From Rhizobiales bacterium 62-17 (lineage in GTDB: Bacteria; Pseudomonadota; Alphaproteobacteria; Rhizobiales; Beijerinckiaceae): a stretch of DNA of 64,000 nucleotides. The notes under the pieces are model-generated. The model saw nothing but the letters and a program-made list of their open reading frames with translations, had not been told where the DNA came from and made no database searches. Where the stretch lies: NCBI GenBank assembly GCA_001898965.1, contig MKVW01000004.1:110523-174522 (forward strand), written 5' to 3'. The position numbers were made by a program, and so were the translations under genes. Below, in pieces: positions 8,983-52,548 of the stretch (positions within the stretch are counted from its first letter, which is position 1; every line of letters begins with the position of its first letter).

Positions 8983-10415
8983 GCGGCATCAACTCCCTGC
9001 GCCTTCGGCGCGTGGGCCTCCTTGAGTGCGGCTACGATCGGCGCCATGCGGCTGCCGTTCGAACCCTTGATCATCACGGCATCGCCGCCACCGACCGCTT
9101 CGAGCACCGCGTCGGTCAAACCCGCCGATGTCGGCGACCAGCGCGAACGCAGACGCTCGGGCAGCGCATCGAACAGATGTTTCATCATCGGGCCGGAGGC
9201 GAAGACGAGATCGATATTGGCGGCCTCGATATCGGCGGCGAGAGCGCGATGCAGATCGGCGGCCTGTGCCCCCAATTCCAACATGTCACCCAGGATCGCG
9301 ACACGCCGGCCATCCATCGCAACGGGCGTCTGGCCGAGCAACGCCAGCGCTGCGCGCATCGACGTCGGATTGGCATTATAGCTTTCGTCAATCAGCATGA
9401 CGTCGCCGCGCGGCGTCTTCAACGAGACGGTCTGTCCGCGCCCGGTCGGCGCCGAGAAGCTGGCCATCGCAGCCGCCGCGTCGTCGAGATCGAGGCTGAA
9501 GGCCTGGCTGGTCAGCAGCACGGCCAGGGAGTTCATCGCCAGATGCGTGCCCGGCGCGCCCACGAAATAAGTGATGTCGCGGCCGAGAATACGTGCTTGC
9601 ACCCGCGATCCGTCGCCATCGCGCTCGCTGGAAATCAACCGCGCATCGGCTTCCGCATGCAGGCCGAAACTCCAGACATTGCCGGTGGTCGCTGCTTGCG
9701 CCCGTGCGTTGAGCAGATCGAACTGCGCCACGTCGCGATGAATGATCGCCACGCCATTGTCTTCCAGCCCGCTGAAGATTTCAGCCTTCGCTTCGGCGAT
9801 CGCATCGACGGAAGCAAAATATTCCAGATGCACAGGCGCCACCGTGGTGACGATAGCCACATGTGGACGCACCATGTCGACCAGCGGCGTGATTTCGCCC
9901 GCATGGTTCATGCCGATCTCGAAGACGCCGAACTGCGCTTCGCGCGGCATGCGCGCCAAGGTCAGCGGCACGCCCCAATGGTTGTTGTAGGACGCGGCCG
10001 AGGCATGCGTCTCGCCGAAGCGCGAGAGCACCACGCGCAGCGCTTCCTTGGTGCTGGTCTTGCCGACCGAGCCAGTGACGGCGACGACACCGGCGGGGCT
10101 GCGCTCACGCGCGGCGCGGCCCAGCCGCTCCATCGCCGGCAGCACGTCATTGACCACATAGAACGAGCCAAGACCTCTGAGATCGTTGGCATGGGCTTCA
10201 TCGATCACCGACGCGGCCGCACCTTTATTAAAGGCCGTCTCGACATAATCATGCCCATCGCTGTTCTCGCCCTTGATGGCGAAGAACAGATCGCCCGGCT
10301 GCAAGGTGCGCGTGTCGATCGATATGCCACTGACGCCAGCGGGAATGGTGCCCGACATGCGCGCTTCCAGCGGCACGAACAGGCCGAGACCGGACCAGAG
10401 TTCAGGCGTGTCCAT
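8976..10415 (-). CDS. murF: UDP-MurNAc-tripeptide--D-Ala-D-Ala ligase
   Basis: Adds the D-Ala-D-Ala made by Ddl to the UDP-MurNAc tripeptide. The 479-residue product has the N-terminal motif [18 protein letters not shown], the P-loop [14 protein letters not shown], the segment [11 protein letters not shown] and the C-terminal [21 protein letters not shown] codon lies one codon upstream (10418), but ATG 10415 overlaps the murE stop as TGATG, the same arrangement as the murG junction, so I use the ATG. Confidence 0.96.
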
Positions 10416-45053: not shown

Positions 45054-45713
45054 ATGCCGACCTTTTCGCTCGACGCTCTCGATCTGGCCGCCCTGCTCTG
45101 TTCCAAGGTCTGCCACGACGTCATCAGCCCGGTTGGTGCCATCATCAACGGTCTGGAAGTCCTCGAAGAGGAAAAAGACGCGGAGATGCGGAAGTTCGCC
45201 AATGATCTGATCCGCAAGAGCGCCCATACCGCCTCCGCCAAGCTGCAATTCTGCCGCCTCGCCTTCGGCGCCGCCGGATCGGCGGGCGCCTCCATCGACA
45301 CCGGCGATGCCGAACAGGTGGCCCGCAATCTCCTGGCCGACGACCGGCTGAAGTTCGAATGGGTCGGCACCCGTCAGCTCATGCCGAAGAACAAGGTTAA
45401 GCTGATCCTCAACCTCTGCCTGATCGCCTCCGCCTGCATCCCCCGCGGCGGTCTGCTGCGCGTCGTCATCAGCGGCGAGAACGACACCACCAACGTGGCG
45501 CTCGAAGCCTCCGGCCCCAATCTGCGGCTGGCCAATGGTGTTCCCGCCCTGCTCGCCGGGGAACCGGAGACGGGCAATATCGATGCCCACGGCATCCAGG
45601 CCTATTACACCGGCCTCGTGGCGCGGGCGTGCGACATGCACGTCGAAATCGCCGTGACCCCGGAAAAGGTGTCCATCGACGCCCGCCCAGCCACCATGGC
45701 CGCCGCGGCCTGA
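45054..45713 (+). CDS. chpT: Histidine phosphotransferase ChpT
   Basis: Phosphorelay protein that moves phosphate from CckA to CtrA and CpdR. The 219-residue product has the dimerisation helices with the phospho-acceptor His21 in LCSKVCHDVISPVGAIINGL and a degenerate Bergerat-like C-terminal domain (LILNLCLIASACIPRGG) without an ATP-binding G box. Length fits the family. It precedes the cheA-like gene by 81 bases in the same direction, with ctrA 5 kb downstream on the other strand. In Brucella chpT and ctrA are close neighbours, so the che genes look inserted into or associated with that pair. Confidence 0.93.
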   Translation: MPTFSLDALDLAALLCSKVCHDVISPVGAIINGLEVLEEEKDAEMRKFANDLIRKSAHTASAKLQFCRLAFGAAGSAGASIDTGDAEQVARNLLADDRLKFEWVGTRQLMPKNKVKLILNLCLIASACIPRGGLLRVVISGENDTTNVALEASGPNLRLANGVPALLAGEPETGNIDAHGIQAYYTGLVARACDMHVEIAVTPEKVSIDARPATMAAAA

Positions 45714-45794
45714 TAAGGCCCTGACAACCAGGCCTTAACCCATTGTGTGCTCTGTTCTACGGCCGCATGAACCGCGGCGGGATAGGCGTGCGTA

Positions 45795-48329
45795 ATGGAC
45801 GAACTGCTCAACGAATTCATTGTCGAGACGAACGAGCAGATCGAAGCTGTTGCCTCGCAGCTCGTCGCCTTCGAACGCACGCCGTCTAACTTCGACACCA
45901 TCACCGCCATCTATCGCCTGATTCACACGATCAAGGGCACTTGCGGCTTTCTCGACCTGAACCGCCTGGCGCGCCTGAGTCATGCGGCCGAAACCCTTAT
46001 TTCGCGCATTCGCGACGATCGTGTCGCCACGCCCGCCGCAGTCTCCCTGATCCTCTCCACGGTCGATCGCATTCAATCGATCCTCGAAGGGCTGGAAAAG
46101 ACCGGCAAGGAACCGGTTCAAGACGACAGCGAACTGATCGCCGCCCTCGAAGGCCTGGCGACCGTGACCGCACCTGGCGAGGACCCGAAGGCCGAAGCGC
46201 CGGCATCACCCGAACCGGCGAGCGAAAGCTCCCCCGCCGCAAAGCCCGCCGCCGCGCCCGCGCCGAACCGCGACAGCGCCAGCATCCGCATTGCGGTTGG
46301 CACCGTCGAACGGCTGATGCGCCTGGTGTCCGAACTGGTGCTCACCCGCAACCAGCTCTCCGAAATCAGCCGCCACGGCAACACCGGCGAACTGGCGCTG
46401 TCGATGCAACGCCTGTCGACCATCACGACCGATCTGCAAGATGGCGTGATGCAGGTACGCATGCAGCCCATCGACCGGCTGTTCTCAAGCCTGCCGCGCC
46501 TCGTGCGCGATTTGAGCCACGAACTCGACAAGAAAATCGATCTCATCGTCGAAGGCTCCGATACCAATTTCGATCGCCAGCTCGTCGAGCTGCTGCGCAC
46601 GCCGCTCGTCCACATCATCCGCAATTGCGCCGACCATGGCATCGAGCCGGCCGCTGAACGTCTCGCCGCCGGCAAGTCGGCGGTCGGGCGCATTCGTGTT
46701 TCGGCGGCCCATGAAGCAAGCCACGTCACCATCGAAATCGCCGATGATGGCCGTGGCCTCGACGCCGACAAGATCCGCGCCAAGGCGTTGTCGCTTGGCC
46801 TCGCAAGCTCTGCCGATATCGCCACCATGACGCGCGATGAAATCTACAATTTCATCTTCGCGCCGGGCTTCTCGACCGCGCGCCGTGTGACGCAGGTGTC
46901 CGGTCGTGGCCTCGGCATGGACATCGTCCGGCAGACGGTGGAATCCATCGGCGGGCGGATCAACATGTCGAGCCAGCCGGGCATCGGCAGTGTCTTCAAG
47001 CTGAAACTGCCGCTGACATTGGCGATCACACCGGCCCTCGTCGTCACGTCGCGCGGCCATCGCTTCGCCGTGCCGCAAAACGCCGTCATTGAAGCCGTCG
47101 CCTGCCAGCCTGATGGATCCTGCCGCCTCGACCTGATGCAGAATGCCCCTGTCCTGCATTTGCGCGATGAGATTCTGCCCGTCATCGACCTCGCCAGCAA
47201 CTTCGATCCCTCAGCACCGCCGATCCAAATCGACCGCGAACAGTTGGTCATCGTTCTGCGCTCGGGCACCGCGACCTTCGCCGCCACCGTCGATACGATC
47301 GCCGACATTCAGGAAATCGTCGTCAAGCCGCTTGGCCCCTCGCTGGCGCATATCGCCGGTTTCGCCGGCAATACGATTCTGGGCGACGGCTCAGTGGTGC
47401 TGATCCTCGACATCGCCAGCCTCGCCACGACGCTGGGTCTATCGACGTCGACCAACTTCAGCCCGAAGCAACGAGACGACAGCGCCTATGTCAAGGAAGC
47501 GACGCGGATGATCGTCTTCCGCGCGGGCCCCGGCCCGCGCAAGGCGGTGCCGCTGTCGCAGATTTCGCGCATCGAGAACGTCGCCACCGCCGATATCGAT
47601 CAATCCGGCGGCGCCTATGTCCTCAAGCGCGGCAGCTCGATCATTCCGCTCGCCGCCTGCTGGGACGCCGATTTCTCCACCCAGGTGCAATGGCCGGTCT
47701 TGATCATCGGCGTCGGCGGCGAGCCCATGGGGCTCGCCGTGTCCGAGATCATCGACGTCGTCGACGAGCCGCTGAACATCAACATTCCCGCATCCGTCCC
47801 CACCGTGCTCGGCTCGACGGTCCTGGCTGGGGAAGCGACGGAGATCGTCGATCTCGCCCATTACATGCAGCTCACCCTGCCCAAGGCCTTCCAGCGCGGT
47901 CATGCGCGCAAGTTCAATATTCTCCTGGTCGACGACAAGCAGTTCTTCCGCGATCTGCTCGCGCCCGTCATTTCCGCCGCCGGCTATGACGTCACCTCCG
48001 TGGCCAGTGGCGCAGAAGCGCTCGGCCTCGTCGAGCGCGGCCACGACTTCGACGCCGTGATCTCCGACATCGATATGCCGGGCATGACCGGCTATCAGTT
48101 GGCGCAGACCTTGCGCGCCGACCATGCATTCGGATCGCGGCCGATCATCGCCATCGATGCTTACGCGGGTCCCACCATCGCCGCCGCGGCTAGGAAAGCC
48201 GGTATGACCGATGTGATCGGCAAGTTCGATCGCACCGCCCTGATCGACAGACTGAGCGCGGCGCTGGAAGCCGATACTTTCGGCGCCTCGTCCATCGAAG
48301 GCAGCGCCATGAACGGAGCGGCCGCATGA
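45795..48329 (+). CDS. cheA: CheA-like hybrid histidine kinase with C-terminal receiver
   Basis: An 844-residue chemosensory kinase. Domains: HPt P1 (residues about 1-105; phospho-His44 in RLIHTIKGTCGFL), a Pro/Ala-rich linker (about 115-165) with no clear P2, dimerisation P3 and ATPase P4 (HIIRNCADHGIE, DDGRGLD, GRGLGMDIVRQTVE), a CheW-like domain (about 410-540), a second CheW-like segment (about 570-695) and a receiver (about 708-830). The receiver has Asp713-Asp714, phospho-Asp758 in SDIDMPG and Lys810, but the usual Thr/Ser is Asp788 (IIAIDAYAG). The stop overlaps cheW (ATGA). No receptor gene lies nearby. It may feed CheY-like proteins or regulate development rather than swimming. Confidence 0.93.
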   Translation: MDELLNEFIVETNEQIEAVASQLVAFERTPSNFDTITAIYRLIHTIKGTCGFLDLNRLARLSHAAETLISRIRDDRVATPAAVSLILSTVDRIQSILEGLEKTGKEPVQDDSELIAALEGLATVTAPGEDPKAEAPASPEPASESSPAAKPAAAPAPNRDSASIRIAVGTVERLMRLVSELVLTRNQLSEISRHGNTGELALSMQRLSTITTDLQDGVMQVRMQPIDRLFSSLPRLVRDLSHELDKKIDLIVEGSDTNFDRQLVELLRTPLVHIIRNCADHGIEPAAERLAAGKSAVGRIRVSAAHEASHVTIEIADDGRGLDADKIRAKALSLGLASSADIATMTRDEIYNFIFAPGFSTARRVTQVSGRGLGMDIVRQTVESIGGRINMSSQPGIGSVFKLKLPLTLAITPALVVTSRGHRFAVPQNAVIEAVACQPDGSCRLDLMQNAPVLHLRDEILPVIDLASNFDPSAPPIQIDREQLVIVLRSGTATFAATVDTIADIQEIVVKPLGPSLAHIAGFAGNTILGDGSVVLILDIASLATTLGLSTSTNFSPKQRDDSAYVKEATRMIVFRAGPGPRKAVPLSQISRIENVATADIDQSGGAYVLKRGSSIIPLAACWDADFSTQVQWPVLIIGVGGEPMGLAVSEIIDVVDEPLNINIPASVPTVLGSTVLAGEATEIVDLAHYMQLTLPKAFQRGHARKFNILLVDDKQFFRDLLAPVISAAGYDVTSVASGAEALGLVERGHDFDAVISDIDMPGMTGYQLAQTLRADHAFGSRPIIAIDAYAGPTIAAAARKAGMTDVIGKFDRTALIDRLSAALEADTFGASSIEGSAMNGAAA

Positions 48330-48853
48330 ATCGTCCCGACATGAACCGCCCCGAACTGCAACGACGCACCGGTGCCCCCGTTTCATCGGCGCTCGCGCAG
48401 CGCATCGATAGCGTTTCCTCGCTGCTCGTCTTCGTCGTGACCATCAACGGTGAAACGTTCGGCCTGCCGATCGAGCATGTGCGAACGGTGTTTCGCGTCA
48501 TCGACGTCACCCCCGTGCCTCTGGCCCCGCCTTACGTGGTCGGATTGATCAATCTGCGCGGCAAGATTCTCACCGCCGTCAGCCTGCGCCAAAGACTCGG
48601 CCTGCCCACCGATACCGTGAACAACGCTTTCGCCGTATGCCTGAAATACGAGGACGAGGATTTCGCTCTCATCGTCGATACAGTCCGCGACGTCGTTGAA
48701 GTGCGGGAAGCCGATCGCCTTCCCGCTTCCCCGCATATCGCCGATGCGCGGGCGCAGCTTACGCTTTCCATCTATCGGCAGGGCGAAACGCTTCTGCCTG
48801 TGCTCGACATAGCGAAAACAGTTTTGGCCGGCACAGCGGCGCAAGCCGCCTGA
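48326..48853 (+). CDS. cheW: Chemotaxis coupling protein CheW
   Basis: Couples receptors to the CheA kinase. The 175-residue product has an Asn/Arg-rich head of about 30 residues (MNRPDMNRPELQRRTGAPVS) and one CheW SH3-like domain: FVVTINGETFGLPIEHVRTV, PYVVGLINLRGKILTAVSLR and FALIVDTVRDVVEV. The start ATG 48326 overlaps the cheA stop (ATGA), so both are made together. No receptor for it is in the window. Confidence 0.94.
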   Translation: MNRPDMNRPELQRRTGAPVSSALAQRIDSVSSLLVFVVTINGETFGLPIEHVRTVFRVIDVTPVPLAPPYVVGLINLRGKILTAVSLRQRLGLPTDTVNNAFAVCLKYEDEDFALIVDTVRDVVEVREADRLPASPHIADARAQLTLSIYRQGETLLPVLDIAKTVLAGTAAQAA

Positions 48854-48878
48854 CCGGTCAAATGGACGGAGACCTATT

Positions 48879-49244
48879 ATGAAGCACATCCTGATCGTCG
48901 ACGACTCTACCGTCATCCGCAAGATCGCCAAGCGCATTCTGGAATCGCTTCACTTCGAGACCTCGGAAGCCGACGATGGTGAAAAAGCCCTGGCGATGTG
49001 CATGGAGCGCATGCCCGACGGCATCCTGCTCGATTGGAACATGCCGGTGATGGACGGCCTGACCTTCCTGCAGAACCTGCGCAGCCGCCCCGACGGCACC
49101 CACCCGAAAGTCATTTTCTGCACGACCGAGAATGACGTCTCCCATATCGCCCGCGCGCTGCATGCCGGCGCCGACGAATACATCATGAAGCCCTTCGACA
49201 CGCGCATCGTTCAATCCAAGTTCGAGGAAATCGGCCTCGCCTGA
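48879..49244 (+). CDS. Single-domain response regulator (CheY-like)
   Basis: A 121-residue receiver with no output domain: acidic pocket Asp8-Asp9 (ILIVDDSTVIRKI), phospho-Asp52 (LLDWNMPVMDG), the Thr switch (IFCTTENDV) and Lys (YIMKPFD). All active-site residues are intact, unlike the receiver of the neighbouring kinase. It sits between cheW and cheB and is probably the direct phosphate acceptor of the CheA-like kinase. A flagellar-switch CheY or a DivK-like cell-cycle regulator are both possible; DIWNMP-type sequences alone do not decide. Confidence 0.93.
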   Translation: MKHILIVDDSTVIRKIAKRILESLHFETSEADDGEKALAMCMERMPDGILLDWNMPVMDGLTFLQNLRSRPDGTHPKVIFCTTENDVSHIARALHAGADEYIMKPFDTRIVQSKFEEIGLA

Positions 49245-49263
49245 CGGCGCGGCTCAAGCCGGC

Positions 49264-49908
49264 ATGACCAAAGAAAGCGCCAAAGCGAAATCCAGTAAGT
49301 CCGCCGCGATCGCGCAGCCGCGCGCCATCGTCATCGGCGCATCCGCCGGTGGTCCGGAGGCCTTGGCCACGCTTTTCGAAGCGCTCGTCGATTGCAATAT
49401 TCCCGCCCCGATCTTCCTCGTCCTGCACATGCCGACGGATTTCTCGGCCATGGTCGCCGCCTATATCGAACGCGTCAGTGGCCGGCCGACCAGCACCGCG
49501 ACCGACGGAGCGCCTCTCCCGGGCCATATCTATGTCGCGCCCGCCGGCCGGCATTTACGGATCACGGGCCGCCCAAGCCGCGCCATGATGCGCCTCGATG
49601 ACGGCGACAGCGAAAATTTCTGCCGGCCGGCCGTCGACGTGCTCTTCCGTTCGGCTGCCGCGACCTACGGCCATGGCCTGCTGGCGCTGGTGCTCACGGG
49701 CACCGGTCACGACGGGCTCGCGGGCGCCGCTGCGGTCGCTGCGGCCGGCGGCACGATCATCGCCCAGGACGAGAAGTCGAGCGCCGCCTGGGGCATGCCC
49801 GGTGCCGTCGTCGAACACGGCCATGCGACGCTGGTCCTGCCCATCAAAGTCATGGGCCTGAAGATCGCCTCGTTGTTTCGCGCCACCGAGCCCGGATGCG
49901 CCGCATGA
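49264..49908 (+). CDS. cheB: Receiver-less CheB-type methylesterase
   Basis: Removes methyl esters from (or deamidates) chemoreceptors. The 214-residue product contains only the catalytic domain: nucleophile Ser27 in VIGASAGGPEAL, the His in LVLHMPTDFSAM and the Asp in LVLTGTGHDGLAG. Canonical CheB (about 350 residues) has an N-terminal receiver that gates activity; it is absent here and the protein begins with a short Lys/Ser-rich tail, so activity would not be controlled by phosphorylation in cis. It overlaps cheR at the stop (ATGA). Confidence 0.92.
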   Translation: MTKESAKAKSSKSAAIAQPRAIVIGASAGGPEALATLFEALVDCNIPAPIFLVLHMPTDFSAMVAAYIERVSGRPTSTATDGAPLPGHIYVAPAGRHLRITGRPSRAMMRLDDGDSENFCRPAVDVLFRSAAATYGHGLLALVLTGTGHDGLAGAAAVAAAGGTIIAQDEKSSAAWGMPGAVVEHGHATLVLPIKVMGLKIASLFRATEPGCAA

Positions 49909-50747
49909 GCAACCGGTTCGATCAATTCCGGACCTTTCTCAAAGCCACCACCGGTGTCGCGCTTGAAAACGATCAATGGCAAGCGGCCGAACAGCGCCTG
50001 GCCCCGCTGGCGGGGCGCCTCGGGCTTTCGGTCGACGATCTGATCGATCGCTTTCTGCGGCATAGCGATCCAAAACTGTCCGCCGCCGTCATCGACGCGA
50101 TGATGACCAACGAAACCTTCTTCTTTCGCGACCGCAAACCGTTCGAACTGTTCCGCGACGTCATCCTGCCGCGACTACTCGAGCGCAAACGAGACGATCG
50201 TCGCCTGCGCATCTGGTCGGCCGCCTGCGCCACCGGCCAGGAACCCTATTCCCTCGCCATGGTGCTCGACGAGGAAGCCCGGCGCTTCGAGGGCTGGACC
50301 ATCGAAATCGTCGCTTCCGACATCTCCGCTTCCGCTTTGGAGAGCGCGCGCGGCGGGCTCTACAATCAGTTCGAGGTGCAGCGCGGCCTGCCCGTCGCCT
50401 TGTTGCTGCGTCATTTCCAACGCGACCTGGAGAAATGGCGGATCGCTCAGCACCTGCGCGCGCAGGTGCAGTTCCAGCAAGTCAATCTGATCGACGACTT
50501 CACCCGGCTCGGTGCGTTCGATGTGATCTTTTGTCGAAATGTCTTGATGTATTTCGATCAGGCGACCCGCAGGTCCGTGCTCAATCGCCTCGCCAGGACC
50601 CTGATGCCGGAAGGCATTTTGATGCTCGGCGCGACCGAATTCACGCCCGGCGACTGCGCGTTTGCACCCCTGCCGGAAAGCCCGGCCCTGCTGCGGCGGC
50701 GCAAACCCAAGCCCGAGGCACCCGCTGGCCACCTCGCCATCGCTTAG
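49905..50747 (+). CDS. cheR: Chemoreceptor glutamate methyltransferase CheR
   Basis: SAM-dependent methyltransferase acting on receptor glutamates. From ATG 49905 the product is 280 residues with an all-alpha N-terminal domain (LIDRFLRHSDPKLSAAVIDA, MTNETFFFRD) and the SAM domain (RIWSAACATGQEPYSLAM, VASDISASALESAR, FDVIFCRNVLMYFDQATR). An ATG three codons earlier (49896) is possible, but ATGA overlap with cheB supports 49905. With CheB it forms an adaptation pair, although no receptor gene is seen. Confidence 0.95.
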   Translation: MSNRFDQFRTFLKATTGVALENDQWQAAEQRLAPLAGRLGLSVDDLIDRFLRHSDPKLSAAVIDAMMTNETFFFRDRKPFELFRDVILPRLLERKRDDRRLRIWSAACATGQEPYSLAMVLDEEARRFEGWTIEIVASDISASALESARGGLYNQFEVQRGLPVALLLRHFQRDLEKWRIAQHLRAQVQFQQVNLIDDFTRLGAFDVIFCRNVLMYFDQATRRSVLNRLARTLMPEGILMLGATEFTPGDCAFAPLPESPALLRRRKPKPEAPAGHLAIA

Positions 50748-50751
50748 CGTC

Positions 50752-50776
50752 CTCACCGTTTCTTTGAAACGGTGAG
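50752..50776 (+). terminator. Hairpin after cheR
   Basis: CTCACCGTTTC (50752-50762) pairs perfectly with GAAACGGTGAG (50766-50776) around a 3-base loop, starting 5 bases after the cheR stop. A T-rich stretch comes only about 20 bases later (TTGTTTTTGA), so it is either a weak intrinsic terminator or an end-protecting hairpin of the chemosensory operon. Confidence 0.55.
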
Positions 50777-50867
50777 AGACTCCTGGCTCTTGTTTTTGAC
50801 GCGTTTTCTTGACGCGAACCGAAACCCGCTTCGCTCGAAAACGCTATGGCGCCAATCACCGTTGCAT

Positions 50868-50897
50868 AAAAAAAGCCCCGGCACGCCGGGGCTTTTC
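50868..50897 (-). terminator. Rho-independent terminator of ctrA
   Basis: A GC-rich stem, GCCCCGGC (50875-50882) with GCCGGGGC (50885-50892), is followed on the minus strand by seven T residues (A-run at 50868-50874 on the plus strand). It lies 21 bases after the ctrA stop at 50918. On the plus strand a shorter T-run (50893-50896) follows, so it may stop both directions. Confidence 0.88.
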
Positions 50898-50917
50898 GAT
50901 CGAGATGAACCTGCCGG

Positions 50918-51619
50918 TCAGGCCGTGATGCGTTCGTCCGCATCGCTGGGTTCACGCAGCACATAGCCACGGCCCCAGACGGTTTCGATATAGTTGCGGC
51001 CTTCGCTGGCATTGGCGAGCTTCTTGCGCAGCTTGCAGATGAAGACGTCGATGATCTTCAGCTCCGGCTCGTCCATGCCGCCATAGAGGTGGTTGAGGAA
51101 CATTTCCTTGGTAAGCGTCGTTCCCTTGCGCAGGGAAAGCAGCTCCAACATCTGATATTCCTTGCCGGTGAGGTGCACGCGGTTGGCGCTGACCTCCACC
51201 GTCTTCTGGTCGAGATTGACGACCAGATCGCCGGTCGTGATGACCGACTGCGCATGTCCCTTCGAACGGCGCACGATGGCGTGGATACGCGCCACCAGTT
51301 CGTCCTTGTGGAAAGGCTTGGTGAGATAATCGTCGGCACCGAAGCCGAGACCCTTCACCTTGTCCTCGATGCCGGCCAGACCCGAAAGGATCAGGATCGG
51401 CGTCTTCACCTTGGCGACGCGCAATGTGCGCAGCACCTCATAGCCGGACATGTCCGGCAGGTTCAGATCGAGAAGGATGATGTCGTAATCATACAGCTTA
51501 CCCAGATCGATCCCTTCTTCGCCGAGATCGGTCGTGTAAACGTTGAAATTCTCAGATTTAAGCATCAGTTCGATGCTTTGAGCCGTCGCGCTGTCGTCTT
51601 CGATCAGTAATACGCGCAT
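50918..51619 (-). CDS. ctrA: Cell-cycle master response regulator CtrA
   Basis: OmpR-family regulator of cell cycle, division and flagellar genes in alphaproteobacteria. The 233-residue product starts [20 protein letters not shown] and has phospho-Asp51 ([13 protein letters not shown]), the receiver Lys in [10 protein letters not shown] and a winged-helix DNA-binding domain with the nearly invariant CtrA stretch [15 protein letters not shown] and [13 protein letters not shown]. An in-frame start at 51682 adds 21 residues not found in CtrA, so ATG 51619 is used. The C-terminal tail ends ERITA, without the Ala-Ala that ClpXP recognises in Caulobacter. It faces the che operon and lies on a separate transcript. 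Confidence 0.97.
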
Positions 51620-52152
51620 GTCGTGTCCCCACCTTGTCCCGCAACTTCGACCACCCAACTGGAGCGTCGCGGCCGCAGACAAATCGCCAACGGAGCAATC
51701 CCGTGTCTTCTACCGGCTTGGTAGTGTTAACGGCGATTGGTTAACAAAGCGTGTTTTTCGCCTGACTCATTCATACATAGAAAACGATTGATCGTGCAAA
51801 TCTTTCAGAATCAGTGAGTTCGCATGTGAATTCGAATTAAAGTTTTGGATGAACAAAGCCCTATAAGGGATTCTGCGGACTCATCCTGGTAACGAATGGC
51901 CTGATCGCGCTCGTCTGGCCGCTTCCAGGGACATCTAAAGAGACACGAGGGCGGATCGCGCAAATCGCGCGAATCGCTTGTCGAAATCGCACTCGAAATC
52001 TGTTGCCGCCACCTGCGAAATCCACCCAGCGGTAACGAAGCGGTTACGATGCTGTGGCATGGTGAATCTGTCTCGCGGTAAAAAGTAAACAGCCAGTGAA
52101 AACCCTGGGGGGATCACTGGCATGGCGTTCGTCAGCGTTTGGAGTTCGCGTA
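51620..52152. promoter_or_regulatory. ctrA-fliJ divergent regulatory region
   Basis: 533 bases with no gene on either strand. Four GANTC (CcrM methylation) sites lie at 51764, 51808, 51869 and 51878, well above the one expected per 256 bases. Two GTTAAC sequences lie at 51726-51731 and 51740-51745; they contain TTAA half-sites of the CtrA box, but the distance between the TTAA cores is 10 and not 7 bases. Together they fit cell-cycle-controlled, autoregulated ctrA transcription. Confidence 0.6.
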
Positions 52153-52548
52153 ATGAAATCGCGGGATACCCTCATTCGACTCAAGAGATTTCAAGCGGAC
52201 GAGAAGCGTCGCCGCGTCAGCCAGATTGAGGCGATGATCGCCGAATTCTCGCGCATGCAGACCGAACTCGACCGCGAGATCGCGACCGAAGAGCAGCGCT
52301 CCGGCAATGCCGATCCGAGCCATTTCGCTTATTCCACCTATGCCCGCGCCGCGCGCGGCCGTCGCGACAACATCACCAATTCCGCCAACGAACTGCGGGC
52401 CCAGCTCGAGGAAGCAAAGCTCCAGCTCGACGCCGCCGTGGAGGAATTGTCCAAGGTCCAGAACCTCGAAGGCCGTGACAAAAGCGGCGAGCGCCTTGTC
52501 GACGTTCCGCGACCGGATGCGATGATGCTGCGCCCCGCCGGCGCCTGA
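52153..52548 (+). CDS. fliJ: Flagellar export chaperone FliJ
   Basis: Coiled-coil stalk protein of the flagellar type III export ATPase complex. The 131-residue product is almost all helical with heptads: MKSRDTLIRLKRFQADEKRR, then VSQIEAMIAEFSRMQTELDR, then LRAQLEEAKLQLDAAVEELS. Length and Arg/Glu pattern are typical for alphaproteobacterial FliJ. ATG 52153 is chosen because the upstream frame (to 52096) shows no helical continuation. Its usual partner gene fliI is not upstream or anywhere in the window. A strong terminator follows 22 bases after the stop, so it forms a single-gene unit. FliJ sequences are weakly conserved. Confidence 0.75.
   Translation: MKSRDTLIRLKRFQADEKRRRVSQIEAMIAEFSRMQTELDREIATEEQRSGNADPSHFAYSTYARAARGRRDNITNSANELRAQLEEAKLQLDAAVEELSKVQNLEGRDKSGERLVDVPRPDAMMLRPAGA

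Follow-up and report, generated by a model that had tools for sequence, protein, structure and literature searches.

The 64,000-nucleotide stretch of DNA analysed here (hereafter the window) contains a block in which chpT, a hybrid cheA, cheW, cheY, cheB and cheR are followed by a convergent ctrA and by a fliJ-like gene. Indeed, the block encodes a histidine phosphotransferase ChpT (45054..45713, + strand; Pfam PF10090, E 3.4e-34; NCBIfam ChpT equivalog, 300.4 bits for a cut-off of 240), an 844-aa hybrid kinase CheA (45795..48329, +) with Hpt, dimerisation, ATPase, CheW-like and receiver domains, a CheW protein (48326..48853, +; PF01584, E 1.8e-27), a single-receiver protein CheY (48879..49244, +; PF00072, E 4.5e-30) sharing 68% identity with the CheY found at the same place in relatives, a CheB with a methylesterase domain only (49264..49908, +; PF01339 as sole Pfam match), a CheR (49896..50747, +; PF01739, E 2.9e-58) and, on the opposite strand, a CtrA regulator (50918..51619, -; NCBIfam CtrA equivalog, 422.7 bits for a cut-off of 350). 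ChpT and CtrA both lie above the equivalog cut-offs that define membership of their families. The next gene (52096..52548, +) adjoins ctrA as in many relatives and is called fliJ-like here: its position is conserved, it matches TIGR02473 (E 9.4e-12) with 45.5 bits, below the cut-off of 50.45, and it gave no Pfam match.

The positions that a preliminary description had given for the seven genes from chpT to ctrA were confirmed in 7/7 cases, and the domain matches of the locus genes agree with its statement that no receptor, cheD or cheZ lies among them. Its term "receptor-less" applies to the locus but not to the genome, in which one chemoreceptor, lacking a sensor domain, is encoded on another contig. 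No match to CheZ was obtained anywhere in the genome.

Altered parts of CheA and CheB

The CheA of the window has the Hpt, dimerisation, ATPase and C-terminal receiver domains of the F5 class according to Pfam, which reported no P2 family in it. Pfam finds one CheW-like domain; a second such region is seen by alignment only, as the stretch carrying the second CheW domain in two relatives (L037 and L045) aligns along the window protein. The usual size of CheA across the order is about 930 aa. In the receiver, Asp replaces the usual Ser/Thr (an altered switch residue), an observation that speaks against a role of this domain in phosphate removal.

The CheB of the window (214 aa) consists of the methylesterase alone and has no N-terminal receiver, whereas the CheB proteins of most relatives are 345-440 aa long and carry an N-terminal stretch about as large as a receiver. 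A receiver-less CheB is encoded in 20 regions, after removal from the 22 flagged of L048, where the gene lies in two frames and is not a clean loss, and of L129 (Acetobacteraceae), a separate case; the CheB of L201, whose start is doubtful, was counted as full-length. Within the window family (L192-L231), 11 regions had no cheB match, the count being made on seven and repeated with the other four. Since its CheB has no receiver, the window lineage would be expected to show adaptation without phosphorylation feedback.

A conserved motif in the CheA linker, between the Hpt and dimerisation domains, was considered as a dock for the CheB receiver or for CheZ and was rejected. It is present in about 10 of 14 aligned CheA proteins and absent from those of the window, L035 and L036. 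The idea was dropped because the motif is also missing from loci whose CheB is full-length (as scored by a loose regular expression, some doubtful cases being taken as lacking it).

Conservation of the neighbourhood and CtrA-like boxes

CheA matches were obtained in 112 genomes of an order-wide sample, and 12 genomes with only a weaker CheA of another class were left out by hand. The remaining 100 include four short CheA proteins of another genus (f41), partial matches at contig ends and two genomes (G030 and G139) in which the match ends before the receiver; three regions (L053, L067 and L144) contain CheA though it falls under one score threshold. Among these 100 genomes, chpT lies at most 3 kb from this cheA in 78, taking ChpT places from among the matches listed, where G091 has none. 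Counted regardless of contig ends, 74 of 161 regions (window included) have both chpT just upstream and a convergent ctrA downstream, and the same block is also present outside this order, in Azospirillum and Sneathiella. The gene order is in this respect more than a chance neighbourhood. No report of a chpT-che-ctrA linkage was found in the open-access literature.

A cheA of this type is encoded away from chpT in 22 genomes, 11 of which keep chpT and ctrA at most 1 kb apart with cheA elsewhere, an observation against an obligatory linkage of chpT and cheA. More generally, chpT often directly adjoins ctrA where the che genes are absent or relocated. The relocated operons form one clade, and remnants with only cheY or only cheA point to erosion of the block, which would offer natural experiments, its states ranging from full through moved, cheY-only and cheA-only to empty. 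Three genomes (G165, G235 and G260) have a second, unlinked cheA in addition to a copy between chpT and ctrA, the unlinked copies of G165 and G260 belonging to the relocated-operon clade. The possibility that the window CheA is itself a paralogue beside an order-type CheA was rejected.

In the four f41 genomes, the only gene between chpT and ctrA codes for a CheA without CheW domain, stripped to Hpt, dimerisation, ATPase and receiver domains, and no match to CheW-domain genes was obtained in these genomes. The dN/dS ratio of the stripped CheA is low (0.16-0.26), and the acidic pair of its receiver varies among the four proteins. Such a kinase, kept without an array partner, speaks against a fixed tie of CheA to the array.

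Upstream of cheA, the sequence TTAA-N7-TTAA (at most one mismatch, within 200 bases) occurs in 38 of 82 thinned loci, compared with 5-10 loci for 17 of 19 other spacings; the other raised spacings are N6 (24/82) and N15 (15/82). A control with the reversed string was uninformative because TTAA-N7-TTAA is palindromic and reads the same on both strands. Boxes in front of ctrA and fliJ were dropped as evidence, since the spacings N9 and N10 are equally high or higher there. In the window, the 300 bases upstream of each of chpT, cheA, ctrA and fliJ contain no CtrA-like box with at most one mismatch, and this includes the chpT-cheA gap (45714..45794, +), the very place where boxes are enriched in relatives.

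Probable function of the locus and proposed tie to CtrA

The locus is probably, and with good confidence, a flagellar chemotaxis operon of the F5 type, set within an old block of motility control, chpT-cheAWYBR-ctrA-fliJ. This assignment is judged by the architecture of CheA, the class names of studied CheA proteins being those used in excerpts of PMC10782961 and PMC6759762. According to the first, the hybrid architecture found here is that of the F5 flagellar class, and nearly all CheA proteins with two CheW domains belong to F5. Moreover, no CheW-domain genes were found in the genome other than those of the locus, and the genome encodes FlhA and a flagellar cluster with FlgA, FlgI, FlgH, FliP, flagellin, FliF, MotB, FlgE and FlgK.

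In such an operon, the single receptor encoded elsewhere would control CheA, from which phosphate would pass to CheY and so to the motor. The CckA-ChpT-CtrA relay could set, by transcription, the timing of che operon and flagellum production, and the link to CtrA would therefore be mainly transcriptional. As no CheZ was found, the receiver of CheA may help in phosphate removal: in the excerpt of PMC10782961, chemotaxis phosphatases are missing from 811 of 871 genomes that encode a single CheA with receiver. Against this, according to the same excerpt, the CheA receiver of Azorhizobium caulinodans is seemingly no phosphate sink, though it is needed for dephosphorylation of the Hpt domain.

The preliminary description had suggested an alternative-function Che pathway coordinated with CtrA. 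The absence of a receptor from the locus and of a sensor domain from the sole receptor of the genome would fit a function other than motility. However, this reading was set aside as very improbable because the only CheW-domain genes found sit here, in a flagellated genome, and it fits poorly with the F5 architecture of CheA; an indirect test did not find a system apart from flagellar chemotaxis. Coordination with CtrA, the other half of the suggestion, is plausible given the conserved neighbourhood and the box enrichment in relatives, and the arrangement most likely ties the chemotaxis genes to the CtrA regulator. Because boxes are enriched in relatives and none was seen in the window, we can only infer transcriptional coupling here. 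In Caulobacter, the major chemotaxis operon reportedly depends on CtrA, going by the title of a 2001 paper by Jones et al. in the reference list of PMC2877005. In Rhodobacter sphaeroides, mcpB of cheOp1 is under direct CtrA control (excerpt of PMC9430884).

The order could also be an ancestral arrangement kept by inertia that does not couple chemotaxis functionally to the relay, since chpT and ctrA keep their place where the che operon has been relocated or eroded, and since the relocated operons are a single clade. We regard this as rather unlikely: the arrangement is kept over many families and several orders, and CtrA-like boxes are enriched before cheA. A more direct tie would exist if CheA served the CtrA relay as a further input kinase, with its receiver exchanging phosphate with ChpT, and ChpT passing it to CtrA; the cell cycle would then be informed of the chemosensory state, besides or instead of steering. 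The conserved adjacency of chpT and cheA is in its favour, as are the low dN/dS of the f41 kinase kept between chpT and ctrA and the reported effect of Che1 mutations on cell length in Azospirillum brasilense (excerpt of PMC8561660), the likeness being that of the F5 class. Nevertheless, the window genome still encodes a receptor and flagella besides CheW, CheY, CheB and CheR, chpT remains next to ctrA in half of the unlinked cases, in which cheA lies elsewhere, and the receiver acidic pair is variable in the stripped proteins; such a role is distinctly unlikely. Taken together with the f41 genus, which would have shed the array-binding domains and kept CheA as a stand-alone relay kinase, a phosphate trade that would couple the cell cycle to swimming signals is unlikely. 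The CheW-free CheA at the same place gives indirect support for some receptor-independent role and is the sharpest natural case for asking whether the kinase feeds ChpT; with four relatives having only the stripped kinase, a direct signalling link is therefore worth testing. The flagellar F5 operon remains our preferred reading.

Comparison with known systems

ChpT and CtrA of the window, both above their family cut-offs, resemble those of the CckA-ChpT-CtrA phosphorelay, in whose literature, as far as available excerpts go, no CheA input to ChpT was found described. Like the F5 systems of A. caulinodans, Rhodospirillum centenum and A. brasilense (Che1), the locus has a cheA-W-Y-B-R cluster and a hybrid CheA composed of Hpt, kinase, CheW-like domain(s) and C-terminal receiver; unlike them, its CheB has no receiver and the second CheW-like region of its CheA is unrecognised by Pfam. 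In A. caulinodans, where CheA is F5 (excerpt of PMC10782961), the single cheA-W-Y-B-R cluster is required for normal chemotaxis and an orphan cheZ is present (excerpt of PMC7750401), whereas no CheZ was found in the window genome. Disruption of the CheA receiver in R. centenum abolishes chemotaxis and phototaxis (excerpt of PMC10782961).

The A. brasilense Che1 system was not established as the same locus. The plasmid cheA copy of strain Sp7 has an open frame that reaches only about 37 codons ahead of the conserved part, and because of this short lead the transmembrane domain of CheA1 (excerpt of PMC8561660) is not fused in that copy. According to the excerpt of PMC13390405, Bradyrhizobium diazoefficiens has a CheA of 949 aa in its che1 and che2 clusters, near the size usual in the order, and che2 drives chemotaxis; it differs in having two near-identical CheA proteins and two flagellar systems.

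Plasmid AZO_p4 of Azospirillum lipoferum 4B is annotated with the series phosphotransferase-CheA-CheW-response regulator-CheB-CheR...CtrA-fliI-fliJ. Its CheB is annotated as response regulator and methylesterase, against a methylesterase only in the window, two small genes and one cold-shock gene precede its ctrA, and a fliI stands ahead of its fliJ, whereas in the window the interval from ctrA to fliJ contains no frame of fliI size; the whole block has the same gene order and the same orientation in both.

Gene order of the locus and its conservation in relatives

The preliminary description placed chpT, a hybrid cheA, cheW, a single-receiver gene (cheY), cheB, cheR and a convergent ctrA in this order, and all seven genes were confirmed at those places, ChpT and CtrA passing the family cut-offs. 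The genes are closely spaced, with 81 bases from the end of chpT to cheA, a 4-base overlap of cheA and cheW and a 13-base overlap of cheB and cheR. The encoded CheB has no receiver domain, a point absent from that description, and the cheY-cheB spacer (19 bases) is too short for one. The convergent ctrA is followed by a fliJ-like gene (45.5 bits, slightly below the NCBIfam cut-off). Azospirillum lipoferum 4B carries the block, annotated as far as fliI and fliJ, with fliI between ctrA and fliJ; in contrast, the window has no fliI there, as positions 51620-52095 leave no space for it and fliJ directly follows ctrA.

A sample of 150 genomes across the order gave a CheA match in 112, of which 100 were kept (window-like CheA or the short form of family f41). 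Within these 100, chpT lies at most 3 kb from such a cheA in 78, and ctrA within 12 kb of cheA in 58 and within 25 kb in 65, all figures being lowered by contig breaks. A set of 161 regions was also compared, namely the window and 160 regions all selected by CheA match (the order sample supplied 40, named genomes 80 and the window's family 40). Here, chpT immediately upstream and a convergent ctrA downstream occur together in 74, including regions of Azospirillum (L111, L114), Sneathiella (L132), Zavarzinia (L135, in which no cheW match was found), a Parvibaculaceae genome (L125), Nitrobacter (L084) and Methylobacterium oxalidis (L140). The neighbourhood is thus conserved, and a chance order is ruled out.

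A stable chpT-ctrA pair with variable che genes

Of 48 genomes without a window-like cheA, 24 have chpT and ctrA within 3 kb and 6 have them at a greater distance on a single contig; in the other 18 they are on different contigs or one is unmatched. Where cheA lies away from chpT (22 genomes), the pair is within 1 kb in 11 and within 3 kb in 13. Four regions have only a cheY-like gene between chpT and ctrA: L238:8910-9395 and L239:9861-10220 (divergent, at 36% and 32% identity with the CheY of the window), L240 at about 9763-10200 and L249:9901-10305 (closer, 53% and 61%). Regions L232-L235 have only cheA there. Since genomes in which cheA is missing or moved often keep the pair, with these intermediate states, chpT and ctrA are a stable pair whose intervening che genes are kept, moved or eroded; we infer that the remnants come from erosion and not from gain. 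In the CheA tree, which was built by a quick method without bootstrap and leaves 34 of 87 inner branches open, a single clade (SH-aLRT 99) holds five relocated operons together with two second copies.

The cheA-only regions belong to f41, sampled by five genomes of one genus, not that of the window. One (G264, L275) keeps the full block and a CheA with its CheW domain. In the other four, the lone cheA (L232:9697-11436, L233:9091-10905, L234:9292-11106, L235:9109-10947) encodes a CheA of 580-613 aa in which the Hpt, dimerisation, ATPase and receiver domains are present and both CheW-like regions gone, and searches of these genomes gave no CheW-domain match. All four retain the Hpt His, the ATPase residues checked (Asn, Asp and Gly) and, in the receiver, Asp, Ser and Lys; the acidic pair of the receiver is variable. 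Pairwise dN/dS is 0.16-0.26, with dS close to saturation in L232 pairs and 0.17 in the cleanest pair, L233/L234 (dS 0.44). Extracts of a survey of 13,673 CheA proteins report a CheW domain in all (PMC10782961); because CheA was recognised there largely by that domain, the survey may have been unable to detect a CheW-free form.

Adaptation, receptors and flagellar genes

A receiver-less CheB is encoded in 20 regions, window included, and 11 of the regions from the window's family have no cheB match near cheA, some being cut or also without cheR. At the Ser/Thr switch site in the receiver of CheA, 25 of these 31 regions have Ala or Asp, five another residue and one a gap; among 128 other loci, the four f41 loci being left out, eight have Ala (six of them from the window's family) and none has Asp. 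CheZ was unmatched in 25 of 29 family-subset genomes vs matched in 34 of 40 from a mainly order-wide set. These counts are not independent, because inherited changes are counted many times. Elsewhere, L129 (Acetobacteraceae) has a short CheB (237 aa) positioned after cheR, possibly an independent loss of the receiver, and cheB of L048 is split between two frames. A linker motif between the CheA Hpt and dimerisation domains (approximately PGEVSLDxLERAF, columns about 205-245 of alignment A1) is conserved in most aligned relatives; the window, L035 and L036 do not have it. The closest named CheA (53% identity) is from a Beijerinckiaceae metagenome assembly (L075).

In the window's genome (5.66 Mb, nine contigs, 99% complete), the cheA and cheW of the locus are the only CheW-domain matches, and the search for CheZ gave none. 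A single chemoreceptor was found, on another contig (G000:C1:228252-228725; regions L003 and L243:8355-9812), against 1 to 39 per genome in the family subset. It comprises a HAMP domain, a signalling domain and two predicted membrane helices separated by a few residues; with almost no loop between the helices, no sensor domain was found. FlhA and a cluster with FlgA, FlgI, FlgH, FliP, flagellin, FliF, MotB, FlgE and FlgK point to a flagellated organism.

The preliminary description suggested an alternative-function Che pathway coordinated with CtrA. The favoured interpretation is a flagellar chemotaxis operon of F5 type (a class with a hybrid, receiver-bearing CheA) within an old CtrA-linked motility block, its adaptation loosened lineage-specifically. 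Direct phosphate exchange with ChpT is possible.

CtrA-like boxes upstream of cheA

Within 200 bases upstream of cheA, the box TTAA-N7-TTAA (at most one mismatch) was found in 38 of the 82 loci left after thinning to <68% CheA identity. Nineteen other spacings were tried: 17 gave 5-10, N15 15 and N6 24. Unthinned, it was present in 71 of 158 loci vs 8.4 in shuffled sequence, the control upstream of cheR giving 2 of 148 vs 3.7. Upstream of chpT, N7 occurred in 7 of 63, not above N6. All four stripped cheA genes have a one-mismatch box about 70 bases upstream; the search upstream in the window gave none with at most one mismatch, and there control of che by CtrA is presumed. Across the group, the enrichment upstream of cheA is consistent with CtrA controlling che transcription, as for Caulobacter, according to the title of Jones et al. 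2001 (cited in PMC2877005), and for R. sphaeroides, as reported in passages of PMC9430884.
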